From: Pseudomonas saliphila
GTDB lineage: Bacteria > Pseudomonadota > Gammaproteobacteria > Pseudomonadales > Pseudomonadaceae
Reading direction: 5' to 3'
Length of the DNA: 64,000 nucleotides
Assembly: GCF_008638345.1 (NCBI RefSeq)
Contig: NZ_VTVA01000011.1
Location: 1 to 64,000 of the forward strand
Position 1 is the stretch's first letter, and each line of letters starts with the position of its first letter. Position numbers and translations under genes: made by a program. Below the pieces are notes generated by a model. That model did not search any database, had not been told where the DNA came from, and saw only the letters and a program-made list of their open reading frames with translations. Below are positions 31,658 through 52,105 of the stretch, in pieces.

Positions 31658-32629
31658 TCAGCGTTCGGAGGGTAGATGGAATCCGGACATTAGGCGCCGT
31701 ATTTTGCTGATTGCCTTGCGTCTGAAGGTGAGTCCTTTGCGCATGACCTGGATCTTCAGCGCAGGCAGGCTCATGCCGGGTGCAAACATCTGGTTGGCCT
31801 GGATGCAAAACACCGGTTTGTTGGTCAGACGCATGATATACATGGCGACGTCTTCATCGTTCTCGATGAAGAGTATCGAATGCGGGTCCTGGTTGTAGAT
31901 CCGAGCCTTGAATGCGGTTATTGCCGCATCCGTCGGCCCCAGGGGGGCTGGGGTATCCAGCATATGCAACTGGCCGAACTCAACGCCATGGCGTTCTAGC
32001 CATCGCTCCGTTTGCGCGCGGTATTTTTCCGGCCGGCGGGTGATCAGATGCGCGACGGGTACTGATGGGGTGAACAGCGGTGTAGCGTTCTCGATAAAGG
32101 CTGCATAGCTGTTGTTGTCATGCATATCCGCTGTGGTCGGCTCTACATACAGTATTCCGTCGATATCCAGGCAGGCGTGCCGCATCAGATTGTGGTGCAG
32201 AATATTCCACTCGAATAGTCGTGGTTGCTCTACCGTTTCCAAATATAGGTCCACATTGCCGGTGTTCTCCTTCTGAGCAAAGGCGGCCATAGTGATCACC
32301 TCTCCCTGATAGACCGACTTGACCATTTCGACGGCAGCCAGCATGGAGTTACCGGAGGCAATGCTATCGTCTACCAGCAGGATTTTTTTTGCATCCCAGG
32401 GCTTAGCCAGCTGCGCATGTTTATAGGTCCTGGTATTGCCCTTTTTCAACTCGTCGTTGCGGTGGAAGGAATACAGATCAGTGAGTGGCAAATTCAACTT
32501 GAGCGAGATAATGCTGGCCACCAGAATGCCGCTCCGCGGAATCCCCACGACGAGATCGACGTCGTGGGGCACCTTGCTTGCGTATTTGTTTGTCAGATTT
32601 GCCAGGTCGCTGACACTTCGATAGTTCAT
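31658..32629 (-). CDS. Phosphoribosyltransferase-HAD fusion protein
   Basis: 323 residues, last gene of the minus-strand polysaccharide train. The N-terminal half is a type-I phosphoribosyltransferase: GIPRSG is the PPi loop and LLVDDSIASGN (84-94) the PRPP-binding motif. The C-terminal half looks like a HAD phosphatase: DIDGIL at 155-160 (motif I, two Asp), LITRRPEKY (motif II region) and FIENDEDVA (motif IV). Such a protein could make a phosphoribosyl product and dephosphorylate it. Neither half shows nucleobase specificity I can identify. Its place in the operon suggests modification of the polymer or its precursor, but this is inference. The gap to manC is 50 nt. Confidence 0.75.
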   Translation of the reverse strand: MNYRSVSDLANLTNKYASKVPHDVDLVVGIPRSGILVASIISLKLNLPLTDLYSFHRNDELKKGNTRTYKHAQLAKPWDAKKILLVDDSIASGNSMLAAVEMVKSVYQGEVITMAAFAQKENTGNVDLYLETVEQPRLFEWNILHHNLMRHACLDIDGILYVEPTTADMHDNNSYAAFIENATPLFTPSVPVAHLITRRPEKYRAQTERWLERHGVEFGQLHMLDTPAPLGPTDAAITAFKARIYNQDPHSILFIENDEDVAMYIMRLTNKPVFCIQANQMFAPGMSLPALKIQVMRKGLTFRRKAISKIRRLMSGFHLPSER

Positions 32630-32679
32630 TGGCGCTGCTCCTTGCGTGCTGTTAGCAGCTCGGGTGATTACCTATCAAT

Positions 32680-34116
32680 TCAGGTGGCGGAGGCCTTGGT
32701 ATTGGCTTCCGTAACCCGCCCATAGTTATCAGCAAAGCGAATAATGTCGTCTTCTCCAAGATAGGAGCCAGACTGGACTTCAATGAGCTCAAGGGGAATC
32801 ACACCGGGGTTTTCCAGAGAATGTACCTGGCCAATCGGGATATAGGTCGACTGGTTCTCGGTGACCATATAGGTCTCTTCTCCGTTAGTAACGCGGGCCG
32901 TGCCGGATACCACGATCCAATGCTCGGCACGGTGGTGATGCATCTGAACCGATAGCTTGGCACCCGGCTTCACGGTGATACGCTTGACCTGATAGCGCTG
33001 TCCGTTATCGATGGAGTCATACACCCCCCAAGGCCGGTACACTTCGCGGTGGTTAAGATGCTCGCCACGATCGTCGCGCTTGAGCTGTTCCACGATGCGT
33101 TTGACGTCCTGTGCCTGACTCTTGTGGGCGACCATGATCGCGTCTTTGGTCTCGACGATTATCAGATCCTCGACACCCACAGTAGCCACCAGGCGGTGTT
33201 CTGCATGCACATAGGTTCCCTTGGTGCTCTCGCTAAGTACATCTCCTTTGAACACGTTGCCCTGCTCATCCTTCGGGCTGACTTCCCACAACGCGGACCA
33301 GGAACCAATATCACTCCAGCCGACATCCAGCGGAACGACCACTGCATCGGTGGTTTTTTCCATGACGGCGTAGTCAATTGAGTCTTCAGGGCAGGCAATA
33401 AAGGCTTCCCGGTCGATACGCGTGAAAATCATGTCCTGGCTACTGCCGGCAATAGCTTTGCGGCAGGCGGCAAGGATATCCGGGCGGAATTTCTCCAGCT
33501 CTTCCAGGTAACGGCTGGCGCGGAACATGAACATGCCACTGTTCCAGTAGAAATCCCCCGATAACAGATAGTCCTTGGCGGTTTCAAGATCCGGCTTCTC
33601 GACGAACTTGGCGACTTTAAAACCACCAGGACCTTCAGAGGCGCCTTTTTGTACGTAGCCATAGCCGGTTTCCGGATGCGTGGGCACGATACCGAAGCTG
33701 ACCAGCTTGCCCGCTTCGGCAAACGGCAAGGCGACGCCGATACGTTCACGAAAACCTGCTTCGTCCTGGATCAGGTGATCGGCGGCAAGAATCAGCAGTA
33801 CGGGATCGTTACCGTCAGCAACAGCCTGCAGCGCAGCAAGCGCTACCGCAGGGGCGGTATTGCGGCCTGCGGGCTCGAGCAGGATCGGAGCCTGTTCCAT
33901 CTTTAGCTTTCGCATCTGTTCTGCGGCAAGAAAGCGATGTTCTTCATTACAGATCAGTCTGGGTAGCTCGATATCGAGACCTTCCAGACGCTTGATCGTC
34001 GCTTGCAGCATGGACAACGAAGCATCCGCGAGTGGCAGAAACTGCTTGGGATTCAGCTGGCGCGAAAGCGGCCAAAGGCGCGAGCCGGTGCCGCCCGACA
34101 TGATGATGGGGATCAT
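32680..34116 (-). CDS. manC: Mannose-1-phosphate guanylyltransferase / mannose-6-phosphate isomerase
   Basis: Bifunctional enzyme giving GDP-mannose, the precursor of GDP-fucose made by gmd and fcl in the same train. The protein has 478 residues. The N-terminal nucleotidyltransferase starts [16 protein letters not shown] with PKQFL, and has the FVEKPD motif. The C-terminal cupin-type isomerase has [20 protein letters not shown] (metal-binding His) and [10 protein letters not shown]. The ATG at 34116 is preceded by AAGGAG that overlaps the end of the upstream WecG-type gene. The alginate homologue AlgA is the same family; here the context is the EPS operon. Confidence 0.95.
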
Positions 34117-34118
34117 TT

Positions 34119-34865
34119 CTAGACTCCTTTATATGATAGCGGCTGTCTGTTTTTGAGCTGCTTTACGAGTATGGGGATGAACCGCAAGCCGTCCCGTGCG
34201 TAACGACCGGACAGCCTGCGTGGTTCGCTGCAGATGCGGTGCAGCCATTCGAGATACAGTTTCTGTACCCATTCGGGCGCACGCGGCACGGCGCCAGACA
34301 GAAAATTCAGGGAGCCGCCGACGCAGAGGCCCACCCCCTTGGCTTTGCCGGTCTGCAGTACCTTGTGCGCCAACACTTCCTGGGTAGGACAGCCAAGGGC
34401 AAATACCACCAGCTGTGCAGGGTGGGCGACAATGAAGTCCAGGCAAGCTGCAGTGGCCTGTTCATCCTTGATAAAACCCATGGGGGGGTAGTGGTGGTAA
34501 AAGGTGATGCCGGGGAATTTCTCCCGCAGGAGCGCCACATTGGGTGCATCACAACCCACCACGCAGACTTTCCAGTGATGCTGGTCTGCCAGGTGAATGA
34601 GGCGAGCCGTCAGCGTGCTGCCCGGAATGGCTTCGGGGATATCCAGGTTACAGATCTTCAAAAACGGCAGCAGAACGCGACTGTCGCATATTCGGTGGCT
34701 GGCCTGCTCGTAGGCGGCACGAAGTTCTGGGTCATCCTTGAGTTGAACGACGTGATTGACATTGGGTGTGACAATATAACTAAAGTCATCCTGGCTGGTC
34801 GTGCGGATTTCCTCGACCAGTTGTTCCTCGGAGCCTTCGTAGAATTCAATATCAAAAGCTTTCAA
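34119..34865 (-). CDS. WecG/TagA/CpsF-family glycosyltransferase (operon copy)
   Basis: 248 residues. The only sensible start is a TTG at 34865, since GGGAGG lies at the right distance before it and no ATG or GTG is near. The family core is present: [23 protein letters not shown] (in place of the usual DG(M/I)GV), [26 protein letters not shown] and [19 protein letters not shown], then the C-terminal basic amphipathic segment. It probably transfers the second sugar of the repeat unit. The CDSR variation at the catalytic Asp region also occurs in family members and keeps the Asp. It lies 2 nt before manC. Confidence 0.85.
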
Positions 34866-34924
34866 TGCAACCTCCCTGGCATTTGAAAACAGCCTACAAA
34901 TGCGTACGTGTGAATGTGCTGCGT

Positions 34925-35698
34925 TCAGGCTGCGCGCTTATCCCGCGCAGCCTTGATCGATTTGATATGGGCATGGACGTAGTGCAACCCATACAGGACG
35001 TAGTTCTTAAATGAGGATAGCTTGAGAAAACGCCTGCGGATGTGTACATCTTCCTTGATCGCGGCGAACCGGCGCTGCTCGGAAACGCCCGTCAGATCGA
35101 AGATGCACAGCGGTTCGGCAAGCTGCAGAACGTCGCGCGGTTTCTCGATACCGTTGGTAAATTCGATGATCATGCAATAATCGGCCGACAGCTTGTAATC
35201 GTCGCGAAAGCGCACGCTGCTCAGGTGTTCATTCTCGAAGTACATCGCCTGATGGCTTGAAGGCATGCCGATAAACAATCGATCGATCGGTTTGGCGAGT
35301 GATTCGATCAGTTTGCCGCTGCCCGTGCGCAAGTAAAAATCACCGTAGATGAATTTTGGACGAACCTCCGCCTTCTCGACCGCCGCAGCAACCTTTTCCA
35401 GGACGGTTTCGTCATAGAACATGTCGCCGCTGTTCAGAAAGATCGTATAGCCAGGCAACGCGGACCCTTTGACCAGCCCCTTGTTCATGGCGTCATACAA
35501 ACCCTTGTCAGGCTCAGACGTGATGTCTGCCTGTGGATCCTTAATGTGTCCAAGCCATTCGACCGCTCCGTCATTGGACGCACCATCGATCACTATCCAG
35601 GTAAAGTTCCGATGGGACTGCCGAACAACACTCTGATAGGTCTCCTTGAGGCCTGCCAGGTTATTCCAATTTATAGTTACGATACTGAAGTGGACCAT
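34925..35698 (-). CDS. Family 2 glycosyltransferase (WcaE-like)
   Basis: 257 residues. GT-A fold: the N-terminal FSIVTINWNN nucleotide-binding strand, VIDGASNDG, the metal-binding NSGD, and the WcaE-type GMPSSHQAMYF followed by LSADYCMI. The C-terminus is basic. It overlaps the start-side of the preceding polymerase gene (wzy stop at 35661) by 38 bp, which implies coupled translation. Predicted to add one sugar of the repeat unit at the cytoplasmic membrane; donor not determined. Confidence 0.85.
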   Translation of the reverse strand: MVHFSIVTINWNNLAGLKETYQSVVRQSHRNFTWIVIDGASNDGAVEWLGHIKDPQADITSEPDKGLYDAMNKGLVKGSALPGYTIFLNSGDMFYDETVLEKVAAAVEKAEVRPKFIYGDFYLRTGSGKLIESLAKPIDRLFIGMPSSHQAMYFENEHLSSVRFRDDYKLSADYCMIIEFTNGIEKPRDVLQLAEPLCIFDLTGVSEQRRFAAIKEDVHIRRRFLKLSSFKNYVLYGLHYVHAHIKSIKAARDKRAA

Positions 35699-36944
35699 TG
35701 CTCACCCGGTTGAGTTGTCGAGGCGACGTTGTTTCGGTTGCTTGCACCTTGGAGTAATAGAGGAAACAGGCTGTTGTAATACCCAGCATGTCTCCCCCGT
35801 ACATGATCGCGTTGGACATCACCATGTTGATGATGCTGAAAATGAAGCTCAGCTGGAAGGCTGCCAGCAGGTCGCCCTTGTGCTTGCAGCGCCGCATGAT
35901 GGTCAGATACATGCCGTAGAAAATGATGGCGATAAAGGGAGTCAGGAAGCCAAAGCGATGGTATACGCCGACAATACCAACATCCGATAAGTAGAAGTGC
36001 GGGTTGTACAGCGCGTGGAAGCCTTCGTTCCACTGCAGCGACAACGCGCCCTTGCCTATATAGTTGTTCTCCCTGATGGCCTGCATGATCGTGGCAATGG
36101 TGTTGTCCCGTACCCCTGGTCCGGTGGTGGCTTCTTCGAACAACATATTGAAGCGCACGATCTGCTCTGCCCAGAACTCCGGAATCAGGAAGAATGAGGC
36201 GACCAGAATCAGGCCCGCCATCGCCCCGACCTTGATCATCGAGTCGACACGGTTGCGGAAGATCCACAGCGCCGCCAGGGCCCATATAAGCATGGTGCCG
36301 CGGGTCTGGATGACCAGCCAGAGGTAGGCCGCGAAGTACAGGACCAAGGCCAGCTTGCCGATCGACAGCTTTTCCTTGAGCTGATACAGCAGCATGAATA
36401 CCGCAATCGTGACGTAACCCGAGCCTATGCGATAACGGTTCGGTCGCAGAGGGTTGTTACCCCAGTCGACCTCGTCCTTGGCGAAGGAAACCGACGCGTT
36501 GTCGGGGATGATGCTGAGGTAGTACATGAAGCCGATGACGGTCGCGAATACCGCCGAATACAGGAAGTACTTCTCGAGATGCTTTTGAGTTGGTGCCGTT
36601 TTGATCAACAGTAACAACGCAACAAAGAAACTCAGCCACATGAAGCTCCGGCGCTCTTCGAGCAAGCCGTAGACCAGCGGTTGGCCATAGTTGAGGTTGG
36701 CGAGGACCGCCGACGAGACGGGCAGCAGCAGTCCGAGAAAGATGATCCATAGGGCTGTTTTTGATTGATAAACCCGTCGCCAGGTAACAAACAGAGCGCC
36801 CGCTACAGCAATCACGCCCAGCAGATACAGTTCACGGAGAAAGGGGATGCCCGCCTTCTTATCGTCGGTCAGGAAGAAGACTTCCGAATTCAACAGAATA
36901 AGAATAAAAAGCAGGTTCCTGTACGCAAGCAATTGCTTGAACAA
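35661..36944 (-). CDS. Wzy-type polysaccharide polymerase candidate
   Basis: 427 residues, integral membrane protein with about 10-11 hydrophobic segments and a larger external loop between about residues 265 and 320 (FNMLFEEATTGPGVRDN, LQWNEGFHALYNPHFYLSD). The NPHFYLSDVGIVGVYHRFG segment resembles the HNxxL-type motif of Wzy/EpsG polymerases. Membrane polymerases are poorly conserved in sequence, so the call depends on topology plus its location among wzx, glycosyltransferase and wzc genes. It is the only polymerase candidate inside the operon. Confidence 0.72.
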   Translation of the reverse strand: MFKQLLAYRNLLFILILLNSEVFFLTDDKKAGIPFLRELYLLGVIAVAGALFVTWRRVYQSKTALWIIFLGLLLPVSSAVLANLNYGQPLVYGLLEERRSFMWLSFFVALLLLIKTAPTQKHLEKYFLYSAVFATVIGFMYYLSIIPDNASVSFAKDEVDWGNNPLRPNRYRIGSGYVTIAVFMLLYQLKEKLSIGKLALVLYFAAYLWLVIQTRGTMLIWALAALWIFRNRVDSMIKVGAMAGLILVASFFLIPEFWAEQIVRFNMLFEEATTGPGVRDNTIATIMQAIRENNYIGKGALSLQWNEGFHALYNPHFYLSDVGIVGVYHRFGFLTPFIAIIFYGMYLTIMRRCKHKGDLLAAFQLSFIFSIINMVMSNAIMYGGDMLGITTACFLYYSKVQATETTSPRQLNRVSNGPLQYRNYKLE

Positions 36945-37071
36945 TGGCGATTTCCCTTTCTGTGTTGAGACTAGTCACGGCTGCGAGGTAATGGACGACC
37001 ATTCGGCAACAGAATTTGGCCCTAAAGCTGACAAATAGTTCCCGCCATACGTCGGCCGGGGTTGTTCAGAG

Positions 37072-37524
37072 TCAGGCGACGTAGGCCTTGGTATGCAGAT
37101 GGACGTCCTGCGAGGCTAGCATCTCCGGCTCAGGCCACCATCGATAGGCGTCATGCTGGATCGATGGTGGTTGCAAATCGCAATCGGGCGGCAGCTTCAA
37201 TTCGTAGGCTACCACCACGTAATGGGTGTCTGGAGTGGCACCAAACACACTATCGCGATAAAAATGTTCGAAGATGCCAAGTAGGGTGGCACTCTCACGG
37301 GAGAATGCCTGACCCAATTCGACCTTCGTCAGCCGCTGGAAAGCGGCGTCGAGCTTTTCATTTTTATAGATCCGGCCTCCTGGCACAAACCATGACCCCT
37401 GGGCGGGGCGGTTTAACCGCTGGCCCAGGAGGATCTCGCCTTGAGGGTTACGCACAACCAGGTCAATCGAAACCAGCGGGGTGCCGACCACGACGGTGCG
37501 GAAGGCGTCTGCTTCGAGGAACAT
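37072..37524 (-). CDS. gmm: GDP-mannose mannosyl hydrolase (Nudix)
   Basis: 150 residues from the ATG at 37524, one base past the fcl stop; longer open frame to 37677 lies inside fcl. It hydrolyses GDP-mannose or GDP-glucose and may balance the GDP-sugar pool during fucose synthesis. The modified Nudix box, GGRIYKNEKLDAAFQRLT, lacks the usual REUxEE glutamates, as is characteristic of Gmm. VVGTPLVSIDLVVRN and WFVPGGR match the family. It is placed after gmd-fcl exactly as in colanic acid loci. Confidence 0.9.
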   Translation of the reverse strand: MFLEADAFRTVVVGTPLVSIDLVVRNPQGEILLGQRLNRPAQGSWFVPGGRIYKNEKLDAAFQRLTKVELGQAFSRESATLLGIFEHFYRDSVFGATPDTHYVVVAYELKLPPDCDLQPPSIQHDAYRWWPEPEMLASQDVHLHTKAYVA

Positions 37525-37525
37525 A

Positions 37526-38500
37526 TCAGCCGCGCGCCTCGTCCATGTGCTCGACAAACCAGCTATAGGCATCACGCAGACCGTCTTCCAGACCAATCTG
37601 CGCGGACCAGCCAAGTGCTGCCAGGCGCGATACATCCATGAGTTTGCGTGGCGTGCCGTCGGGCTTGCTGGCATCAAAGCTCAAACGGCCCTTGAAGCCG
37701 GACACCTGACTGATGGTTTCCGCCAGCTCGCGGATGGTGCAATCCTGACCGGTGCCCACGTTGATATGCGAGAGCATGGGTTGAGTATGCTGCTGATAGG
37801 TGCTGCTATCCAGGTTCATGACATGCACACTGGCGGCGGCCATATCGTCCACATGCAGAAACTCGCGCATCGGCTTGCCGCTGCCCCAGACCACCACTTC
37901 CTCATCACCACGCTGGGTCGCTTCATGGAAGCGGCGCAGCAGGGCAGGGATGACGTGGCTGTTTTCCGGATGATAGTTGTCATGCGGGCCATAGAGGTTG
38001 GTCGGCATCACGCTGCGGTAGTCACGACCGTACTGGCGGTTGTAGCTTTCGCAAAGTTTGATGCCGGCAATCTTGGCAATGGCGTAGGGCTCGTTGGTCG
38101 GTTCCAGCACACCGGTCAGCAAGGCTTCTTCGCGCATCGGCTGGTCTGCATTCTTCGGATAGATGCACGACGAGCCGAGGAACAATAGCCGCTGAACATC
38201 ATTGGCATGCGCTGCCTGAATGATGTTGGCTTCGATCATCAGATTCTCAAAGATGAACTCCGCCGGATAGCTGTTGTTGGCGTGAATGCCGCCGACCTTG
38301 GCGGCAGCCAGGTAGACCTGGTCGATGCGTTCTTCAGCGAAGAACGCATTCACCGCTGCCTGGCTGAGCAAGTCGAGCTCGTGCCGGCTGCGGGTGATGA
38401 TGTTGCGGTAGCCAAGGGCCTCCAGCCGGCGCACGATGGCTGAGCCGACCATGCCCCGGTGTCCCGCCACGAAGATTCGCTGGTCGAGATCCTGTTGCAT
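37526..38500 (-). CDS. fcl: GDP-L-fucose synthase
   Basis: Converts GDP-4-keto-6-deoxymannose into GDP-L-fucose (epimerase/reductase). 324 residues from the ATG at 38500. Rossmann motif [12 protein letters not shown], catalytic YAIAKIAG (YxxxK), substrate segment [20 protein letters not shown], and [14 protein letters not shown]. It lies 2 nt after gmd and 1 nt before gmm. Confidence 0.96.
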
Positions 38501-38502
38501 AC

Positions 38503-39627
38503 TCAACCCTCCACGGTAACCGGAATGTCGTGGCCGTGTTCTTTGAGCAGGGCGTGACGCTTGGCAACCTTGAGATCCTCGCGGACCATCTCGGCGCACA
38601 TTTCCTGAACCGTTATTTCAGGCGTCCAGCCTAGCTTGGTCTTGGCCTTGGTCGGATCACCCAGCAGGGTTTCCACTTCGGCCGGCCGGAAATAACGCGG
38701 ATCGACTCGCATCAGCACATCCCCTACCTTGACGCCTGGGGCCAGATCGCCTTCGACGCTTTCGACGATGGCTTGCTCATCAACACCGGTGCCCTCGAAA
38801 CGCAGGGTGATGCCCAGCTCGGCGGCCGACCAGCTGATGAATTCGCGCACTGAATACTGCACGCCGGTGGCGATCACGAAATCCTCAGGCTGGTCCTGTT
38901 GCAGCATCATCCACTGCATACGCACGTAGTCCTTGGCGTGTCCCCAGTCCCGTAGCGAATCGATGTTACCCATGTACAGGCAGCTTTCCAGGCCCTGGGC
39001 GATGTTGGCCATACCGCGGGTAATCTTGCGCGTCACGAAGGTTTCACCGCGACGGGGCGATTCGTGGTTGAACAGGATGCCGTTGCAGGCATACATGCCA
39101 TAGGCTTCGCGGTAGTTCACAGTGATCCAGTAGGCATACAGCTTGGCCACCGCGTAGGGCGAGCGCGGGTAGAAGGGGGTGGTTTCCTTCTGCGGTGTTT
39201 CCTGCACCAGACCGTACAGCTCGGAGGTGGACGCCTGATAGAAACGGGTCTTCTTCTCCAGACCCAGCAGACGGATCGCCTCAAGAATACGCAGGGTACC
39301 CATGGCGTCAACATCAGCGGTGTATTCCGGTGCTTCAAAGCTCACGGCTACGTGGGACTGTGCGCCCAGGTTATAGACCTCATCGGGCTGCACTTCCTGC
39401 AGGATGCGGGTCAGGTTGGACGAATCAGACAGGTCGCCATAGTGCAGCACGAAGTTCTTGTTCTCGACATGCGGGTCCTGATAGATGTGATCGACGCGCT
39501 GGGTATTGAACAGCGAAGCCCGGCGCTTGATGCCGTGCACTTCATAACCCTTCTCGAGCAGGAACTCTGCGAGGTAAGAACCATCCTGCCCGGTGATACC
39601 TGTGATCAAAGCCTTTTTGCGTTCCAT
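38503..39627 (-). CDS. gmd: GDP-mannose 4,6-dehydratase
   Basis: First enzyme of GDP-fucose synthesis. 374 residues. NADP-binding [14 protein letters not shown], substrate-binding [17 protein letters not shown], catalytic [15 protein letters not shown] (YxxxK) and [16 protein letters not shown]. All key residues are present. With manC, fcl and gmm it forms a complete GDP-L-fucose route. Confidence 0.97.
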
Positions 39628-39686
39628 TTTCTTAATACTCCGGTCGTAATTGCAATGAGTTGAATTCGTTTGAATCTGGTCGTCGT

Positions 39687-40847
39687 CTATCGTGATCTGG
39701 CGCTGCGAAGCAGAATTTGAACGCGCTCGCGGAAGCCGAAAAGAATGACCTGTACCGATGGGAACTTGTAAAAAAAGCGGTACATGTCGTATTCGGTTTT
39801 CGGCGTAGTCAGGCTGGCGCCATTCAGTTCGGCAGAATCGATCAGGGCAATGCCGTCGCCCTCTATGTCATGCATGACGCTGAGCTCCATGGGCTTCATA
39901 GATAAGCTGAAGTTGAACAATCCCTTCTGACTGGTGCGGGTCAGTTGCAGCCCGCTGCGGCAATCCTTGCAACCGTAGAGGTTTACGGTGAAGTCGTAGG
40001 CGGCAAGCCTTTCATTCTGCTTCTTGACGCTGGCGGGGAGCAGTTCGCTGAACGCGTCGTACATAGCCAGGCTGCCTTCCCGAGGCGCGAACTGGTAGTC
40101 GATACTCTGCTGCTGGATGGCAACCTGAAAGCGTGAAGAAGCGATGTTGAAATGTTGGCCCGGGTCGCCAAAATTAGTGGTAAGCGACCGATAGGGGTAC
40201 ACGAAGAACTTGTTGCGCGAAATGATATAAGCGTTGTACAGCTTGAGCCACGACGATTCCGGCCAGCTGCGGATGTCCGCGGGAATATTGTCGATGTGCG
40301 CGATATCCGTGCCGTTCTTTTCCATCCATGTGCGAAACCCGGTCCATTGATTCCGCGACCAGGCCTGCCCCCAGGAGGCCGCCAACTGCATGAAATAGAC
40401 ATCGGCATTGCCGTTGTCGATGGGGGTGAACGGAAGATTTGCCGTCTGGTTAAACTGCAGGCTATACAGGCTTATGCCGGCAATTTCCGGATCGTTGGCA
40501 TAAAAGCCAAGGGCGGCCGTGGTGTATTGATAGAAGTAGGGCGACGCAAAGAGGTCGTCCTCGAGAATGATGACGTCCCCATACTCTTCGGTCAGATCGC
40601 CACAGCTAAGCACGTGCTCTCGCAGCCCAAGACGGGTCTTGTGCGCGATGATGCGCTTTTCGCCAAACGGCCAGTCGAACTCCTCTGCGACCTCGCGCGG
40701 TTCATCCATGCCGGAGTTATCCAGGCTGATGACCAGCCGCACGTTACCAGGCGGATAATGTGCCTTGCGCAGCGAGCCCAGCAAGCGGCTCAGACTCTTC
40801 GGTCGGTTGTACCCGATGACAATAATGGTAGGTAAATTCAGGGGCAT
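39687..40847 (-). CDS. GT-A fold glycosyltransferase
   Basis: 386 residues from the ATG at 40847 (a TTG at 40859 in frame is an alternative; neither has a strong ribosome site). The N-terminal 230 residues are [29 protein letters not shown], and the metal-binding [14 protein letters not shown], similar to GT2/GT13-like enzymes. A central [10 protein letters not shown] and a distinctive C-terminal domain of about 120 residues, with YGCKDCRSG, follow. Probably one of the transferases assembling the repeat unit. Sugar specificity cannot be given. Confidence 0.78.
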
Positions 40848-40901
40848 AACGTCTCGCAACCAGAGTTGAGGAAAATTGATAAAGGTGCACCGGTCAGGTA
40901 A

Positions 40902-42287
40902 TCAGGCACTACGGTACCCCCGGGCAAACCTTCTGCGCGATTCAACAGCTGTCAGCACAACCAGACACAAATAAATGGCGACACTGGCGATGGTGAAAGC
41001 GATCACCGTGCTCAGTGAATCCTCTAGTAGCGCCGCACCGATGAACAACGCGGATATACGCAGGGTGGTGCTGACGATTTCAAATACCAGTGACAATCTC
41101 TGCATAGAAAGAGCAGGGAAGGCTACGGTGCAGGGGCGGCTGACAAAAATGGCGTATTCGGCCAGTGCCAACCAGCTGGCGAATTCGCCCGCTGAGGCCC
41201 ACTCTGAGCCGAATACCAAGGCAAACATCCAGGGCCCGAAGAAGAACACCGCGCCAAAGGGCACAAGACCCACAATCGCCAGCCCGGCAACTGCCTTCAT
41301 CAACATCGCGGTGATGGGTTCCTGGCGGTGGATGGCCTGAGTGATTTTCGGGTAATACACGTCCGCGACCGATTTGCCGATCAGATGTGTCGGCATGCTC
41401 AACGCTTGTTTGCAAAGCGTGAAGTAACCGGCGGCAGCCGGCCCGAAATAGGCGGCGAGCACGAGTGTCGGAAGGTTCTGCGATACGGTGTTGATAAACA
41501 TCTGTGGTGCGCGGAACAGCGGAAAGTCACTGTAGCGCTTGGCAACCTCAAGGGTGTCGCCTTTCACGTGCTGCTCGCGAGGCGAATCATCGACCGTGCT
41601 GGCGCCGCCGCTCCTGCGAATGCCAAACAGCAGCATCAGGGCATGCAATAGCGGACCGAGCGCGGTGGTAATGACCAGCACCGCGGCGGAGGCGTGAATC
41701 CAGCCCGCCGCGCTGCGGATCAGGTTATGTAGTAGGGAATGCGTTATGGCCACCTTGGCCGTGACCCGGAACAGCTGATGGCGGATCAGCCATTGCTGTG
41801 CAATTTCCAGGGCTGCGCCAAAGAACATCGTCAGCGGCAACAGCATCAGGAAAGGCGTGATTTCGTCGACGCCCATCTTCTGCACCAGTGGCGCGCCGAA
41901 GAAGTACAGCAACAGTGCCGAGAGCCCGGCCATGCCGACGGCAATCATCAGGGACAGCCTGACCACCGCCCCGGCATCTGCGTTGCGTTTGGGCAACACA
42001 ATGGCCATCGGATAAGACAGGGCGGCAGCAGGGACGATCATCATGACCACACCCATGAACACCCCGAGAACGCCGTAACTTTCCGGGCCGTACAGCCGGG
42101 TAATAACCGGCATGAACAGCATGGTCAGCACCTGCGCGCCGGCGGTACCCGAGACGACGGTGAGGATGTTGCGAAGCAGTTTGCTACGCATCTGCTGGCG
42201 CAGCCGCTCGCTAAACCTAGACCATCGGGATCCGGGTTGTCCGTTTGCGTTGATGTCGACCTCCACTGTCGGCGCGCTGTTAGGCAT
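40902..42287 (-). CDS. wzx: Wzx-type repeat-unit flippase
   Basis: 461 residues with about twelve predicted membrane helices after a basic N-terminal stretch of ~35 residues. Matches the polysaccharide-export MATE/MVF superfamily: LLRNILTVVSGTAGAQVLTMLF, LYGPESYGVLGVF, and FGPAAAGYFTLCKQALSMPTHLIG. It should flip the undecaprenyl-linked repeat unit to the periplasm. Its start overlaps the end of ugd by 8 bp. Confidence 0.88.
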   Translation of the reverse strand: MPNSAPTVEVDINANGQPGSRWSRFSERLRQQMRSKLLRNILTVVSGTAGAQVLTMLFMPVITRLYGPESYGVLGVFMGVVMMIVPAAALSYPMAIVLPKRNADAGAVVRLSLMIAVGMAGLSALLLYFFGAPLVQKMGVDEITPFLMLLPLTMFFGAALEIAQQWLIRHQLFRVTAKVAITHSLLHNLIRSAAGWIHASAAVLVITTALGPLLHALMLLFGIRRSGGASTVDDSPREQHVKGDTLEVAKRYSDFPLFRAPQMFINTVSQNLPTLVLAAYFGPAAAGYFTLCKQALSMPTHLIGKSVADVYYPKITQAIHRQEPITAMLMKAVAGLAIVGLVPFGAVFFFGPWMFALVFGSEWASAGEFASWLALAEYAIFVSRPCTVAFPALSMQRLSLVFEIVSTTLRISALFIGAALLEDSLSTVIAFTIASVAIYLCLVVLTAVESRRRFARGYRSA

Positions 42288-43626
42288 TGATACTCATGCG
42301 GCCGATGCCGTAATAATCAAACCCGGCACGCTTGATCTGAGTCAGGTCGTACTGGTTGCGGCCATCAATGATCAGAGGCTGCTTCAGCAGCTTCTTCAGG
42401 GCTTTGAGGTCTGGGCGACGGTAGGGTTTCCACTCTGTAACCAGGATCAGCGCGTCGGCATCGATTGCGGCTTCGTACTGACCTTCAACGATCTCCAGCT
42501 TGCCGTCGGCGAACCACTCTTCAGGGAACTCGCGCCGAGCGGTTTCATGCGCCACAGGGTCACAGGCTTTGACCGTCGCGCCGGCATTAATCAGGCTGTT
42601 GATCAGCACCACGCTTGGCGCTTCGCGCATATCATCAGTGCCTGGCTTGAACGCCAGACCCCAGACTGCAAAGCTCTTGCCGGCCAGATCGCCGTTGAAA
42701 TGCCCGTTGACCTTGCTGAATAGTGACTGTTTCTGCAGGTCGTTCCTCGCTTCCACAGCCTGGAGCAGCTTGGGCTCGAAATCGTTCTTATGGGCCATAC
42801 TGATCAGTGCTTTGACGTCTTTCGGAAAGCAGGAGCCGCCATAGCCGCAGCCGGCGTAGATGAAGTGGTAGCCGATCCGCTGATCCGAGCCGATGCCCAG
42901 GCGAACATTTTCCACATCCACATCAAGCCGCTCACACAGGCTGGCGATCTCGTTCATGAAGGAGATCTTGGTGGCGAGCATGGCATTGGCTGCGTATTTG
43001 GTCATCTCTGCGTCACGCACACCCATGAACATCATCCGCGGGTGGTTGCGGATGAAGGGCGCGTAAAGCTCGTTCATGATCGTGCGGGCCCGCTCGCTGT
43101 CGGTACCGATAACGATGCGGTCGGGATGCATGAAATCATCGACGGCAGCGCCTTCCTTGAGAAACTCCGGGTTCGACACGACGTCGAATTCGATATCCAG
43201 GCCGCGTTTCTCGAGCTGTTCGGCTACAGTAGCGCGAACCATATCGGCGGTGCCGACTGGGACTGTGGACTTGTTGATGATGACGGACGGGCGGGTGATC
43301 AGGCTGCCGATCTCCCGTGCTACGTCGACGACATACTGAAGGTCCGCGGAGCCGTCTTCGCCGGGCGGCGTGCCAACGGCGATAAAGAACACCTCGGAGT
43401 CGTCGATGGTGTCCTTGAGCGACGTCGTAAAGCGCAAGCGGTCTGCTGAAAAGTTGTCAGTGACGATATCTTCCAGACCGGGCTCGTAGATCGGCAAGAT
43501 GCCCTTCTTCAAGTTATCAATCTTGTTCGGGTCGATATCGACGCAGTAAACGGTGTTGCCCATCTCTGCAATACAAGCGCCCGTTACGAGTCCTACATAG
43601 CCGGTTCCAACAACAGTAATATTCAT
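42280..43626 (-). CDS. ugd: UDP-glucose 6-dehydrogenase
   Basis: Oxidises UDP-glucose to UDP-glucuronate, supplying an acidic sugar for the polymer. 448 residues with AAGGAAG before the ATG. NAD-binding VVGTGYVGLVTGAC, catalytic Cys in YGGSCFPKD, and GLAFKPGTDDMREAPS. Full-length, with all key residues. Confidence 0.96.
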   Translation of the reverse strand: MNITVVGTGYVGLVTGACIAEMGNTVYCVDIDPNKIDNLKKGILPIYEPGLEDIVTDNFSADRLRFTTSLKDTIDDSEVFFIAVGTPPGEDGSADLQYVVDVAREIGSLITRPSVIINKSTVPVGTADMVRATVAEQLEKRGLDIEFDVVSNPEFLKEGAAVDDFMHPDRIVIGTDSERARTIMNELYAPFIRNHPRMMFMGVRDAEMTKYAANAMLATKISFMNEIASLCERLDVDVENVRLGIGSDQRIGYHFIYAGCGYGGSCFPKDVKALISMAHKNDFEPKLLQAVEARNDLQKQSLFSKVNGHFNGDLAGKSFAVWGLAFKPGTDDMREAPSVVLINSLINAGATVKACDPVAHETARREFPEEWFADGKLEIVEGQYEAAIDADALILVTEWKPYRRPDLKALKKLLKQPLIIDGRNQYDLTQIKRAGFDYYGIGRMSINA

Positions 43627-43734
43627 GGCGCTTCCTTAAAATTGAACGAAATCTACTTGCACACCCCGGCGGTGGCCGGGGCTGCGTTTCATGTCTGGGG
43701 GTGTCTTTCTATCAACCCGAGTAGCGGTAGCCGG

Positions 43735-45129
43735 TCAGTACACGTCCCGCGAGAACAGCGTAAAGGGCGTGCGGAACAGGATCTTGATATCCAGCCACAG
43801 TGACCAATTGTTGATATATGCCAGGTCCTGTTCAACGCGTTGCTGCATCTTCTCGATGGTCTCCGTCTCGCCGCGATGTCCGGTGACCTGGGCCAGCCCG
43901 GTAATGCCCGGCTTGATGCGGTGACGTGCCATATAGGCAAGGATCTTGTCGCTGTAATAATCGTTGTGCGTCACAGCGTGCGGACGAGGGCCGACCAACG
44001 ACATTTCGCCGCGTAACACATTGAATAGTTGCGGAAGTTCATCGATTGAGGTGCTGCGCAAGATCTTGCCCACCGGCGTAACGCGCGGATCGTCGCGGGT
44101 AGCCTGTTTGACGATGGTGTCATCGTCATGCATCCGCATGGACCGGAATTTCATCACATGGATGATCTCGCCATTCCAGCCATGGCGAGGCTGGCGGAAC
44201 AGTACCGGGCCGGGCGAGGACATCTTGACGGCGATAGCTGCGCCGATCAGCAGCGGGCTGAGTGCAACTATTGCCAGCAGCGCAACACCTCTATCGAGCA
44301 ATTCCTTACTGAACACAGAAGCAGGATGAGAGCTGAGCGGCGTCTCATTCAAATAGATGGCAGGTAGTTGCTCTATCTGCGAAATCGACTGATTCAGGAG
44401 CGGCATCCGACCGAAATCAGGAATCCAGACCACGTCGACACTGAGATCGAGCAGGGTGATGTACAGTTTCTCGATATAGGCGACCTCATCGAGGCTCAGT
44501 GCGATGTAAACGCGACGGATACCGTACTGTTCGACCAGTTCGCGAACCTTGGACAGATCGCCAAGGACCGGGAAACGCGGGTCCAGGGTCTCGGTATCAG
44601 GCTTCGATGTGATCAACCCGACCAGCGGAACGCGATTGGAGCCGTGCAACCGCTTCGCCAGCTCATAGGCGGCAGGACCGGAACCGATAATAACGGAGGT
44701 TCTGCCAAGCCGGAGCTTGCTGGAGTGGCTGTTCCCAAAGTAGCGCAGGGGAATATAGGCCGCTGCCTGGATCAGGTAGCCGAGTACCGCCCACTGCAAC
44801 AGGATCTCGGAAGAAAACAGATGCATGCTCTGACTGGCATAGGTAATCGCCATCAAGCCCGCCAGCAAGGTCGCCCACCCACCCATCAGATGCACCAGGC
44901 CGGACAGGTAGCTATGCCGTTTGTGGTAGACATGAAGCAACATATACGCAGGCACGGACCCGAAAACGGTGATGACGATCAGCAGTCGGTACTGAGTGGA
45001 AACCACGCCCAGATGCTGGTAAACCAGATAGCAAAGTAGTCCGCTGACCAGAAAGATAGCGCACAGCCATTGGCCCCAGAAGGTAAGCCCCCGACGATTC
45101 ACGGCGGGGTTGGTGCGTTTGGCGATCAT
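43735..45129 (-). CDS. wcaJ: Undecaprenyl-phosphate glucose phosphotransferase (WcaJ-type)
   Basis: Initiating enzyme that moves a hexose-1-phosphate (usually glucose) to undecaprenyl phosphate. 464 residues. Five hydrophobic helices up to about residue 285, with a CoA/NAD-binding-like Rossmann domain in the middle (SVIIGSGPAAYELAKRLHG). The C-terminal catalytic PHPT domain contains VMKFRSMRMHDDD, STSIDELPQLFNVLRGEMS, GPRPHAV and PGITGLAQVTGHRGET. Its ATG overlaps the stop of the VpsP-like gene (ATGA at 45126-45129). Confidence 0.92.
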   Translation of the reverse strand: MIAKRTNPAVNRRGLTFWGQWLCAIFLVSGLLCYLVYQHLGVVSTQYRLLIVITVFGSVPAYMLLHVYHKRHSYLSGLVHLMGGWATLLAGLMAITYASQSMHLFSSEILLQWAVLGYLIQAAAYIPLRYFGNSHSSKLRLGRTSVIIGSGPAAYELAKRLHGSNRVPLVGLITSKPDTETLDPRFPVLGDLSKVRELVEQYGIRRVYIALSLDEVAYIEKLYITLLDLSVDVVWIPDFGRMPLLNQSISQIEQLPAIYLNETPLSSHPASVFSKELLDRGVALLAIVALSPLLIGAAIAVKMSSPGPVLFRQPRHGWNGEIIHVMKFRSMRMHDDDTIVKQATRDDPRVTPVGKILRSTSIDELPQLFNVLRGEMSLVGPRPHAVTHNDYYSDKILAYMARHRIKPGITGLAQVTGHRGETETIEKMQQRVEQDLAYINNWSLWLDIKILFRTPFTLFSRDVY

Positions 45130-45887
45130 TGTGAACCTTCCTCCTTACATATCTGCTGTTTAGCTTTGGTAGCCGAGCCGAGACTCCAGCACAGCGGGGT
45201 GGCGAGACCTGAAGTGCTGGCCAGGTTATACATCTGCAATGCTTCCCTTTTGCTGACCGCGGCTGAACGGCTCGCGGCCTGGAGTGTGATGGCACGCTGG
45301 TGCGTATTCAGATCGCTCCATGCCGAGAATCCCAGCGCCGCGAGATCACTGTCCAACTCAACGCGGCCCGCGCCCAGTTCGCTGGTGCGACGCAGGGCCA
45401 GATCAAATTCATCATCCAATTGCTGCAATCCCTGTTTTGCATACGCCAGCCTGAGCCATGACCACGGCCAGGCTGGACGTACCTCAACTGATTTACGGAA
45501 GGCTAGCAGCGCGTCTCGTTTCTGAGCCTCGATCCCGGAACCCTCGGGTGCGACCAGAGGCCCCCATAACAGGATCCTGCCCAAGCGATCCAGATACTCG
45601 CCATTGGCGATGGGAGCGCGCGCGACGGCACTTTCGGCTCGCTGTAAAGACATGTTCCAGTAGCCCTCGCTGGGCGGTTGGTCCGAGTTTTGCCAATAAC
45701 GCAAGGCCAACTCCGCATGCTCGCTGGCTACCCCTGCGTATAACATCGGAACCGAGAGCATCAGGCAGACGATGGAGGCCGGCAACGCAACGATAAAAGC
45801 CAGCTTCTGCGCGAACGGCGCCTGCTCGGAGACGCGGCGGGGGGGCGTGCTTTTTGTATATGGGCCGTTAACAGCGGATATGGTCAT
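45126..45887 (-). CDS. VpsP-like polysaccharide biosynthesis protein
   Basis: 253 residues. One membrane segment near the N-terminus (LAFIVALPASIVCLMLSVP, about 29-47), then a periplasmic helical, TPR-like region (ALLAFRKSVEVRPAWPWSWLRLAYAKQGL). It resembles VpsP of Vibrio exopolysaccharide clusters in length, topology and gene neighbourhood (beside the WcaJ-type transferase); this is recognition from memory, not an alignment. Two cysteines near the C-terminus (LCWS, QQICKEEG). The biochemical role is unknown. Confidence 0.6.
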   Translation of the reverse strand: MTISAVNGPYTKSTPPRRVSEQAPFAQKLAFIVALPASIVCLMLSVPMLYAGVASEHAELALRYWQNSDQPPSEGYWNMSLQRAESAVARAPIANGEYLDRLGRILLWGPLVAPEGSGIEAQKRDALLAFRKSVEVRPAWPWSWLRLAYAKQGLQQLDDEFDLALRRTSELGAGRVELDSDLAALGFSAWSDLNTHQRAITLQAASRSAAVSKREALQMYNLASTSGLATPLCWSLGSATKAKQQICKEEGSQ

Positions 45888-49028: not shown

Positions 49029-49166
49029 GTTTGCTCTCTCCATCTAGCTGTTTTTCAGCGCTGTGGGGGATGTCATCCCCATAGCCTGGCCTGAATCCGT
49101 TTACGGATTCAGGCGTTGCGGCAGGTGTTAATGTTATCGAAGCAGCGCTCAGCCGGACGCTGAGCG

Positions 49167-50363
49167 TCAAAGGCTCATGTTAAGGCTAACTAGATAGACA
49201 TTGCGTTCGTAGCTATTGAAGTAACGTGACGAGTCATTTTCCGACCGACGGTACCCGACGGTGATGTCAGCCCAGCGATCAAATGCATAGTTGACCCCAA
49301 CACTGTAGGCAGTCCGTTCGTCGTCACGGTCACTGGCCTTGTATTCCCGATCGGAGAACTGATACTCGAGCTCAGTACTGATACGCGGCGTCCAGCCATG
49401 TGTCCAGCTGAGCGCCGTGGTGACATCTTCGACGGTTGAGGCATCATCTTCACCCTCGTCGAAGGCGCGGCGGGCATTGACCTCGAACGTTGAATAGGTG
49501 CGTGGGGACCAGGCGACACCCACTTCCCACATGGGGCTGGTGAAATCGTCGCGCGCGTCACTGTCGAACTTCTTGCGTTCAGCACCAACGCGGACTGTAC
49601 CAGTGGTTTTCGCTGTAGCATCCCAAGTGGCGCCCACCAGGCCTGCCGTGTTGGTTCCGTCGCGGCTGAAGCGGTCGTCAACGTAATCGTGTTGAGTGTG
49701 GCGGACCTCAACGATTGAGCGCGTGCGGCCACCGATACGGTGGAACCAGGTGCTGCTGACGCCGAGGCTGTCGCGTTCCTGATCTTCGTTGATATTGCCG
49801 CTGTTGTGGTACCGGCGCTGCTCGTAGTTGGTGGCGAAGTCGAGCTGGTTGGAGGCGCTAACGGCACCAAAGGTATAACCCAGACCGGCTATTGTACGAC
49901 TGTATTTGTCGTTGTAAAAGTCACGTCCGGACAAGTCGCCAGCTAGCTCGTCGGTGCGGCTTTTGGTGTCATCGTTGATGGTGTCTTCAATGCGGTGATA
50001 GCCGATATTGCCGCGCACTCGGTGGCGAGAGGTCAGTGCCAGGGCGCTCTTGAGTGTGAGGTGATGGTCTGTATTGGAAGCGTCGCTGTCATCGTGATAG
50101 ATGTCACTATTGAAGGAGTACTTCAACTCGTGCTGGCTGTTGCGATTTTCCGCGCTCAGAGCAAAGGTCGGCTCAATGCCCGTAACCCATGAATCTTCTG
50201 CGTCGTCACGCACGCCGCGATAGTTGTCATCGTAGGCTTCGGAAACGAGCAAGGTTGGCGTGAACTGAAAGCCGCGGACATCAATGCTCATTGGCTCGAT
50301 TGCCCAACTATAGGCAGATACGGAGGTCGCGAGCGAAGCGGTCAGAAATTTGGAGAGCCTCAT
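49167..50363 (-). CDS. Outer-membrane beta-barrel of the EPS locus (BBP2-type)
   Basis: 398 residues with signal peptide (SAYSWA|IEP). The rest is made of alternating strand-like segments with acidic turns: FTPTLLVSEAYDDNYRG, GIEPTFALSAENRN, HRVRGNIGYHRIED, ELEYQFSDREY, YAFDRWADITVGYRRSE. It ends VSLNMSL. This matches the putative beta-barrel porin 2 (PF10082) type commonly found in Wzx/Wzy exopolysaccharide loci. It could supply, or help form, the outer-membrane exit for the polymer, since the Wza-like protein next to it lacks a pore helix. AAGGAAG precedes the ATG. Confidence 0.8.
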   Translation of the reverse strand: MRLSKFLTASLATSVSAYSWAIEPMSIDVRGFQFTPTLLVSEAYDDNYRGVRDDAEDSWVTGIEPTFALSAENRNSQHELKYSFNSDIYHDDSDASNTDHHLTLKSALALTSRHRVRGNIGYHRIEDTINDDTKSRTDELAGDLSGRDFYNDKYSRTIAGLGYTFGAVSASNQLDFATNYEQRRYHNSGNINEDQERDSLGVSSTWFHRIGGRTRSIVEVRHTQHDYVDDRFSRDGTNTAGLVGATWDATAKTTGTVRVGAERKKFDSDARDDFTSPMWEVGVAWSPRTYSTFEVNARRAFDEGEDDASTVEDVTTALSWTHGWTPRISTELEYQFSDREYKASDRDDERTAYSVGVNYAFDRWADITVGYRRSENDSSRYFNSYERNVYLVSLNMSL

Positions 50364-50418: not shown

Positions 50419-50892
50419 TCAGCTGGAACTAGCGGTGGTTCCGCCGCCGGTTCCGCCCCCTGAGCCGCCTCGTGGGACGTTCAGGGAGGATGGCGCCAGG
50501 ATCTTCGAGGGTGCCGCGCCAGCAGCGGCGGGCAGTCTGTCAGTCACTGCGCTGACAATTTCCTCGGCTTGATCAGGTGCTGCTGCTACCGCCGCTTCCA
50601 CAATCTCTGCAATCTGATCGGGCGCTGCATCGATAGCGGCCAAAGCGATATCGCTGGCCAGCTCGGGAAAAGCTTGAACGGCCCGCGTGACGATGTCGAC
50701 GACTTCATCGTTACATTCCGTGATGCGCTGCTGAACCGCGACAGTTACCGCCTGCCGTTTATTAGCAGTGTTGTTGAACTGGTGCTCTGCAGAACTCGCA
50801 CAAACGTCCGCCGCCAGGGCTGGCAGGCTGGTAAAGCCTAGGCCCGACATAGCGAGCGCCGTAAGTGGCACAAGCAAAGTTTTCCTCATCAT
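50419..50892 (-). CDS. Secreted Ala-rich helical protein with Gly/Ser tail, first gene of the EPS train
   Basis: 157 residues from the ATG at 50892, with AAGGAG seven bases upstream; the in-frame TTG at 50895 and the ATG at 50889 are less suitable. Signal peptide ending ALA|ADV. Two cysteines (DVCASS, ITECND) could form a disulfide. The middle contains helical repeats of about 14 residues: AIDAAPDQIAEIVEAAV followed by AAAPDQAEEIVSAV. The tail is low-complexity (GGSGGGTGGGTTASSS). I do not recognise a characterised family. It lies 55 nt before the BBP2 barrel and is the first gene after the ops-like leader, so it is probably an envelope accessory factor for export. Confidence 0.7.
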   Translation of the reverse strand: MMRKTLLVPLTALAMSGLGFTSLPALAADVCASSAEHQFNNTANKRQAVTVAVQQRITECNDEVVDIVTRAVQAFPELASDIALAAIDAAPDQIAEIVEAAVAAAPDQAEEIVSAVTDRLPAAAGAAPSKILAPSSLNVPRGGSGGGTGGGTTASSS

Positions 50893-51038
50893 CAACTATC
50901 TCCTTGGTAGATATAGACTACCCATGCTGACGCCGTAGCGTTGTTGACTCAGTCACAGATGCAGGAAAGTGCGCAGTGCGCCTCACCCGCTCTCAGTTTC
51001 AGGTCATGCCTTGTTTCAGTGCGTTCACCTAACCAACA

Positions 51039-51068
51039 GGCACGCTACCGCCCAAAGGTAACACCTTT
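51039..51068 (-). promoter_or_regulatory. ops/JUMPstart-like element in the leader of the polysaccharide operon
   Basis: On the minus strand the leader reads AAAGGT-gtt-ACCTTT (6-bp hairpin, 51068-51054) followed immediately by GGGCGGTAGCGTGCC (51053-51039). The second part contains the enterobacterial ops core GGCGGTAGCGTGC, the site at which RfaH is loaded onto paused RNA polymerase. The element lies 146 nt before the first gene of the train, the expected place for an ops in a long untranslated leader. This supports RfaH-type antitermination of the ~19-kb operon. Confidence 0.8.
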
Positions 51069-51138
51069 GTTTTCAGCGGGTTGATCAGCCGATAGGTCGC
51101 AATTTGTACGCCCTCCGGTTTCCCTGTTATCGCTCAAT

Positions 51139-51465
51139 TCAAAACGCTGCAAAATGTGCACCCGCCCTGTTAATCATGCTCGTCAAAGATTTCTGGCCGC
51201 AGCCACTGACAACGCGCGAAATATCGCGGGTCGCAGGAAGGGCAGCCCAGTTGTCCTGAGTTTTTATTATTGCGAAGAGGTTACCGGGAAACATAGGCTG
51301 CTCCTGCCGCTTCACCTTGCCGGCGGGAAGCTTTTCTACCCGACTGCTCGGGTTGAAGCGCTCGAGGCCTTGATGCGCGAGGTGCTCGCCCGTACGATCT
51401 TGCTGTCGGGTTCTGCACTGTATGGGAGACCAGGCGACTTCCGGCATTTCCCTATGGTTGTTCAT
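51139..51465 (-). pseudogene. RfaH/NusG-like fragment: NGN domain without KOW
   Basis: 108 residues from the ATG at 51463-51465, with a good AGGAGG (51470-51475) four bases upstream. It resembles the N-terminal domain of RfaH: W-x-x-IQCRTRQQDRTGEHLAHQG (matching WYxxxCKxRQ-type starts), then VEKLPAGKVKRQEQPMFPGNLF (RfaH: EPLFPNYLF), DNW, and ATRDISRVVSGCG (RfaH: ATRGVSHFVRFG). The reading frame then runs into an unrelated tail and stops where the linker and C-terminal KOW domain should be. I found no KOW remnant in the following 250 nt. Either a degenerate rfaH paralogue or a stand-alone NGN protein; it lies directly upstream of the ops element. Confidence 0.65.
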
Positions 51466-51479
51466 AAGCCCTCCTAGCC

Positions 51480-52105
51480 TTGAGGCACATACCGCGGAAC
51501 ATGTTTGCTGCCATTAAATCCGTTGAGGCATCAAATCGCTATCAGCGGATTCGATCGCTCCGAAAGACTAGACAGAGCTTTGATCGAAGAGTTCCAAAAG
51601 TTTTATCCAGCGAAGCATGCTTTTCGATGGCTGGCATTCTGGCAAATTGGTCCCAACTGTCAGGCGAGGTCCGGTGAGTATTCATGGACGACTTAGGTGA
51701 GGAAAAACCTGGTTTGAAAAGCTGTTGCGAATCAGTGGGATGGGGTTCGAAGCCGCGCAGTGCGGGGGTTGGCGCCACGTTTCTGTCGCCTGGAGTCAAG
51801 TGGGTTTGAGCATCCTCAGCGCTGCCGAACACAGCGCAACGCTTAGCGCGCCTTGACAGACAATCGCTTTCCGTTCATTGCCAATCAGGCCCGTCCACGC
51901 GCCGTCTATTCCTGAGGGTGCAGCGAACGCCACTTTTGCCGAGCTCGGTTACCGAGCGGGGCGTTCCATCGCTCGCTCACCAAGGCATAATGATGGCATC
52001 TCGGGGTTGGGTGCGCGGCTCTTCAGGCGAGGCCTCCTTGCTTGAACGCCTTTACCTGATCGGTTTCTATTCCTATGGTGAGTATCAGACAGCTCGGGAG
52101 TGCCC
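51480..52105. other. Non-coding or unrecognised region between the RfaH-like fragment and fdhD
   Basis: 626 nt with several short open frames on both strands, none matching a family I recognise and none with a convincing ribosome site. Lower coding quality than the surroundings suggests decayed sequence at the border of the polysaccharide locus. It must carry the fdhD promoter. Confidence 0.35.

Follow-up and report, generated by a model that had tools for sequence, protein, structure and literature searches.

A retained ops element behind a putative rfaH remnant at the head of an EPS operon in a Pseudomonas relative

The EPS operon in the 64-kb stretch of DNA analysed here (the window, from genome G000) probably keeps an ops/JUMPstart RfaH loading site whose resident RfaH has decayed, with an unlinked RfaH having taken over. 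In the sequences compared, the ops element is present and conserved, the operon's own RfaH gene is decayed, an intact second RfaH is encoded elsewhere and ops is associated with RfaH-headed operons. Since the resident RfaH has decayed and the loading signal has been kept, the RfaH encoded elsewhere probably acts here. The mechanism is known in kind; what is new is the retention of ops behind a lost resident RfaH.

The EPS leader, its ops element and the remnant gene

The leader and the operon behind it have the following features:

51569..51594, minus strand: promoter-like pair GAACTC-N15-GTCTA(G), the only match in the window
51421..51555, minus strand: 5' leader, Shine-Dalgarno sequence and first 15 codons of rfaH-L, with high three-way identity
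51139..51465, minus strand: putative rfaH-L remnant, an NGN-only ORF of 108 aa (Pfam NusG, partial RfaH model, tree, changed conserved positions)
51053..51069, minus strand: JUMPstart-like hairpin CAAAGGTgttACCTTTG, a 7-bp stem directly 5' of ops
51041..51052, minus strand: ops element GGCGGTAGCGTG (exact motif match, recurrence in the genus, kept in relatives)
50419..50892, minus strand: first EPS gene, coding for a small protein whose start resembles a signal peptide (by eye)
49167..50363, minus strand: outer-membrane beta-barrel protein, BBP2_2/EpsL-like (profile matches)
48492-49043, minus strand: polysaccharide export protein (profile matches)
46267-48489, minus strand: Wzc-like chain-length/tyrosine kinase protein (profile matches)
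31658..45887, minus strand: rest of the co-directional EPS block (family matches)

The element GGCGGTAGCGTG at 51052-51041 on the minus strand, part of GGGCGGTAGCGTGCC (minus strand, 51053-51039), matches the ops core of JUMPstart/ops (RF01707) exactly and contains C3, G4, G5, T6, A7 and G8, the bases described for the ops DNA hairpin in the cited part of PMC6391919. The 13-mer GGCGGTAGCGTGC, for which one exact match was found in the window against 0.004 expected under a dinucleotide model, agrees in its letters with the last 13 of the Rfam JUMPstart consensus (GGGCGGUAGCGUG, read one base earlier). The whole JUMPstart match in the window scored 17.9 bits, below the Rfam gathering score of 35 (RF01707), and at gathering level Rfam gave no JUMPstart/ops match in the window or in the 18 loci scanned. 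Further ops sites, a search for which had been proposed in the preliminary description, were found: across 37 genomes of the genus the exact 14-mer GGCGGTAGCGTGCC was counted 60 times and its reversed pattern 4 times, and a second copy in G000 lies on contig C9. A plasmid search with the leader found no relative.

The hairpin that precedes ops in JUMPstart/ops (RF01707) is present in the window as a 7-bp stem. A stem as good was found at 7% of 3000 control positions, each control being followed by GG, and the 65-nt stretch containing the hairpin folded no better than shuffles (z -0.16). In G023 and G020 the stem is mostly kept and the loop altered. The three remnant genomes keeping ops (G000, G023 and G020) share without a difference a 22-nt block, CCTTTGGGCGGTAGCGTGCCTG, that spans a hairpin arm and ops; as the arms hardly vary among these three, the window stem shows no compensating changes. 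Across 19 other sites with a hairpin before ops, most of which follow unlinked RfaH genes, pairing holds in 97.8% of cells and two of the eight pairs change on both sides (A-U to G-C), with the covariation score reached by 0/500 shuffles and the pair count by 28/500, in a test covering one hand-picked spacing type and 17 distinct rows, the window's row not among them. The ops element lies ~150 bp ahead of a co-directional EPS block of ~19 kb, and the ops-core match with a small hairpin before an EPS operon that had been claimed from the window was thus borne out.

The minus-strand ORFs of this block, from 50895 to 31658, belong to polysaccharide export, chain-length, sugar-transferase and glycosyltransferase families. 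Its distal part (31658..45887) encodes a VpsP-like protein, a WcaJ-like sugar transferase, a UDP-sugar dehydrogenase, a flippase, glycosyltransferases, a GDP-mannose dehydratase/epimerase, a WecG-type transferase, a ManC-type enzyme and a phosphoribosyltransferase-domain protein, and most of these genes were also found in G020, G023, G026, G012, G001, G030 and G022. Upstream of the leader, fdhD (52100-52939) runs in the opposite direction. A glycosyl hydrolase family 5 gene (window 30551-31603, plus strand) converges on the end of the block, and a tmRNA gene (187.9 bits) is located at window 62687-63074 on the minus strand.

Conservation along the leader was expressed as three-way identity among G000, G023 and G020. 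It was highest over the first 45 nt of the remnant ORF (0.91), followed by the leader (0.86), hairpin plus ops (0.86) and the promoter (0.85); it was 0.80 between ops and the first EPS gene, 0.62 in the remainder of the NGN region and again 0.62 from there to the hairpin, and lowest (0.32) in the distal intergenic stretch. The whole leader (0.62-0.91) is better conserved than the distal intergenic stretch, which is not what one would expect from plain decay of the gene part. The promoter-like pair with its spacing recurs upstream of rfaH-L in six of nine genus loci, window included, with a very different spacer sequence in two of the six, and was found in 0/12 named loci outside the genus; we take it to resemble sigma-E/AlgU promoters. 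A stretch of around 90 nt that leads into the first EPS gene (window 50867-50956, minus strand) is nearly invariant in the three genomes and holds small inverted repeats around the Shine-Dalgarno sequence; translational control is possible there.

The 108-aa ORF, which starts at an ATG at 51465 with a Shine-Dalgarno sequence and stops 86 nt before the hairpin, matched Pfam NusG over residues 11-91 (42.5 bits, cut-off 22.2) and the NCBIfam RfaH model TIGR01955 over residues 12-87, its N-terminal half only, with 48.5 bits, short of the equivalog score of 144.5. Family profile searches recognised nothing beyond the NGN domain, and no KOW domain, so the preliminary description of a 108-residue protein similar to the RfaH NGN domain but lacking KOW holds. 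A NusG-family search of the G000 genome missed this ORF and a protein search found it. At 24 conserved NGN positions, each shared by at least 90% of 36 aligned linked-class (operon-linked) relatives, G000 carries 12 changes, among them Y13S, L14P, K18R, Y62N and G81D (numbered as in L120); there are 7 each in G023 and G020 and none in two intact relatives. The G000 protein is 56% identical to that of G020 and 66% to that of G023; EPS proteins among the same genomes are 75-99% identical, most EPS enzymes above 88%. Pairwise dN/dS values among the three remnants were 0.46, 0.55 and 0.67, against 0.02-0.21 for seven EPS genes of these genomes and 0.02 and 0.09 in two close pairs of intact linked RfaHs. 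An excess of synonymous changes was weak and seen in two of the three remnant comparisons (p = 0.020, 0.044 and 0.22), which speaks against wholly free decay. The frame is lost within the NGN region in G030 and beyond it in G023. The 12 changed positions together with this weak constraint argue that the ORF is a remnant of the operon's own RfaH.

Linked and unlinked RfaH genes in the genus

A survey of 37 genomes of the genus found the linked class at full length in five (G026, G022, G011, G001 and G012), broken in four (G000, G023, G020 and G030) and not at all in 28. An unlinked RfaH-class gene was found in 27/37, with a stop inside the gene in one case and a position at a contig edge in another, and neither class in eight. 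Against the RfaH model (cut-off 144.5), five intact linked RfaHs that were tested scored 161.7-173.7 bits. In the tree the four remnants form one clade (support 95/89) that falls within the linked class; linked and unlinked classes separate at 88/98, although the tool warned of long branches. Only the linked class was found in G026, a single contig, and in G011, whose contig ends before the EPS operon so that no link to EPS is seen there; given these two genomes the classes look interchangeable, and we read the pattern as two RfaHs replacing each other at a single type of site.

In relatives, a full-length RfaH gene and then ops stand at the head of the same EPS operon; of eight relatives inspected, seven have the larger part of this EPS gene set behind the linked gene. 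Among 39 named loci with a BBP2 relative, ops was present in 9/10 with a linked gene and 1/29 without (Fisher p = 8e-7, two rows with <100 bp upstream being dropped from the test). The one locus with ops for which no upstream linked RfaH was found is that of Serpens gallinarum (L133, 4918), where the linked gene may have been lost independently. Hairpin and ops are nearly invariant in three of the four genomes with a broken linked gene; G030, which has an unlinked RfaH and has kept the EPS operon, lost ops (best match 4 mismatches). Conservation of the element among relatives, an expectation of the earlier description, was therefore confirmed for most genomes with the linked class, with loss in G030.

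The presence of an intact RfaH paralogue was likewise confirmed. Contig C32 of G000 encodes a 169-aa RfaH scoring 167.1 bits over residues 11-165, thus reaching the TIGR01955 equivalog score (144.5) over its full length; the NusG of G000 scored 55.5 bits on this model. With full-length relatives of the fragment heading the same operon, this agrees with the earlier suggestion of a decayed local regulator and another elsewhere. The C32 gene has an ops of its own, 129 nt after its stop. Among 35 unlinked-class relatives, a count in which G000's own row and position I93 do not figure, the DNA-reading and autoinhibition positions of RfaH are largely kept: K10 in 33, R73 in 35, E48 in 30, F130 in 34 and R138 in 35 (E. 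coli numbering). By eye the C32 protein has the same letters at all five. At the E48 position 26/36 aligned linked-class relatives have Q and 30/35 unlinked-class ones E. According to the cited part of PMC7593976, E48 is needed for autoinhibition in E. coli RfaH, and its change to Q fits a less autoinhibited, cis-acting linked class, judged from the aligned residues. AlphaFold modelled a beta-type C-terminal domain in the linked class and also, at lower confidence, in the unlinked-class relative P0098; the two models neither separate the classes nor bear on this reading.

An ops lies within the 3-kb stretch of 11 of the 21 unlinked-class genes shown, two of which come from other families. Genes tested after it match Wzz in G023, GlmS-type and sugar-dehydrogenase families in G008 and an epimerase in G035; the gene tested after it in G022 and in G001 had no Pfam match. 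In G018 a KOW-only RfaH remnant (C11:84292-84450; L111 14278-14460) still has ops behind it, so that here, too, ops would have survived an adjacent rfaH. The remnant adjoins a gene that by eye is metallo-beta-lactamase-like and that also neighbours the unlinked rfaH of G000, and G018 has another RfaH on C13.

Proposed mechanism, alternatives and known systems

The operon would once have held its own RfaH gene between promoter and ops, a gene since reduced to an NGN-only remnant inside the leader. We infer that RNA polymerase starts at the sigma-E/AlgU-type promoter near 51570, crosses the remnant and pauses at ops after the hairpin. The paused polymerase would take up the unlinked RfaH from C32 and then transcribe the long operon with less Rho/NusG-dependent termination. 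Promoter use, pausing, loading and antitermination are all predicted from sequence.

The preliminary description had also raised a stand-alone NGN protein. Continued production of such a protein, with a working role in competing with RfaH or NusG on the polymerase or acting as their decoy, appears very unlikely: half of the conserved NGN positions are altered in G000, the frame is lost in G030 and G023, and the remnants have diverged to 56 and 66% identity where most EPS enzymes exceed 88%. The open ORF, the weak synonymous excess in two of three pairs, and a Shine-Dalgarno sequence and first 15 codons that are the most conserved part (0.91) speak for it, so that this proposal is disfavoured by the altered positions and keeps the slight constraint on its side. 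An operon no longer dependent on RfaH, with gene and element both decaying and ops a fossil, would account for G030, which lost ops and keeps the operon, and for the 28 of 29 named BBP2 loci lacking both linked gene and ops. This, too, seems unlikely for a hairpin and ops that are 0.86 identical in three genomes against 0.62 for the leader just before, although identity after ops is also high (0.80). Conservation in the start region, and in the stretch that precedes the first EPS gene, roughly equals that of ops, as would be the case if the leader were kept for some other reason, such as an RNA-binding regulator or leader-peptide translation, and ops were incidental; the excess of the exact 14-mer over its reversed pattern in the genus and the occurrence of ops behind RfaH genes of both classes make this most improbable.

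Retention of ops with replacement of the resident RfaH can be set beside several known systems. As far as the cited parts of PMC7593976, PMC6391919 and PMC2864571 describe it, the E. coli RfaH/ops regulon with JUMPstart leaders is alike in its ops core, the stem-loop before it, the long polysaccharide operon and an unlinked protein passing the RfaH equivalog cut-off; it differs in that here, in a Pseudomonas relative, the operon has its own, decayed rfaH between promoter and ops, and a further ops closely follows the unlinked rfaH. UpxY, TaA and the Shewanella CL7 RfaHs, as presented in part of PMC7593976, are specialised NusG paralogues at their own polysaccharide operons, like the intact relatives here, but here a canonical ops lies between gene and operon and stayed when the resident decayed. 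The putative monomorphic cis-acting RfaHs of a preprint (PMC13015549, in the part cited) resemble the linked class in operon linkage, the predominance of Q at E48 and a beta C-terminal AlphaFold model. Here, however, ops is present and the unlinked-class model is also beta, so these models do not tell the two classes apart. The recruitment of operon-resident NusG paralogues is called unknown in the cited part of PMC7593976, and together with the relation of cis- to trans-acting RfaHs it is discussed as open in those of PMC7593976 and PMC13015549. The genus appears to hold side by side an intact resident with a second RfaH, the linked class only, a broken resident with ops kept and a broken resident with ops lost, and points to RfaH/ops control outside enterics.

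ops sites at integrons

Besides the EPS and rfaH sites, two GGCGGTAGCGTG sites of G000 are located outside long open frames; four of its eight 11-mer sites (L005, L007, L008 and L010) lie inside long open frames and were set aside as chance. At C9:78177-78164 (L006, L100), the only other exact 14-mer in the genome, ops is followed by a 37-residue match to the C-terminal end of an integron integrase (TIGR02249, 58.6 bits), transposase debris (Y2_Tnp) and four attC-model matches on the ops strand (L100). At C1:425693-425683 (L003) one weak attC-model match (23.3 bits) lies beyond ops, and the 1.5 kb upstream is 82% identical to G025 (L074) up to ops and no further; in G025 two attC-model matches follow ops. 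This check places the L003 site with the integron type.

Among the best 30 loci per search, a cassette-strand ops (<=1 mismatch) was found <=100 bp from where intI ends (3') in 19/28 genus stretches, two stretches without an intI C-terminus having been dropped, or 18/27 distinct ones (L206 and L212 being one site), in 7/30 of the order and 0/30 of the class; on the opposite strand it was found in 0/88 across all three. At L154-L182 and L184-L213 ops was seen ~30 bp beyond the intI 3' end, or without intI, facing attC arrays, and the intI of L168 scored 408.6 bits (cut-off 265). An attC covariance model, used after three home-made attC scans had returned no or few sites, gave 71 matches, 13 of them its own seeds, all downstream of ops and on the same strand. 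Matches occurred in 17/19 non-polysaccharide ops stretches (16 without seeds) and 0/15 polysaccharide-classed ones (L109 among the 15 lacks ops), part of the loci having been classed by gene families and the others by the bases that precede ops. Of 11 stretches first left out, L163, L181 and L183 had matches, and L101, L102, L110, L111, L152, L153, L171 and L175 had none.

An ops beside intI was found at 16/19 distinct sites in genomes with RfaH and 2/8 in those without (Fisher p 0.006), an association that is only indicative since the loci are related; G015 (81% complete) and G027 (93% complete) have ops by integrases and no RfaH was found in them. The idea that non-polysaccharide ops sites head defence islands was dropped because PADLOC support went little beyond HerA-type matches of one protein, and in view of the integron evidence. 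Literature searches combining integron with RfaH, JUMPstart or operon polarity suppressor, or cassette array with antitermination, showed no such link among the titles listed, and the terms RfaH, NusG and antitermin were absent from two integron reviews. We tentatively propose that ops may be a portable RfaH loading site serving both polysaccharide operons, at which resident and unlinked RfaHs swap while ops stays unchanged, and integrons, at which an RfaH-modified polymerase would run antisense through intI and then into the cassette array. If true, RfaH would regulate the expression of integron cassettes, perhaps along with the integrase, and so add elongation-level control to cassette expression. 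A further sequence around GGCGGTAGCGTGCC, inside an opposite-strand ORF, is present in two identical copies in G020 (L152 and L153) and is probably a repeated mobile element.
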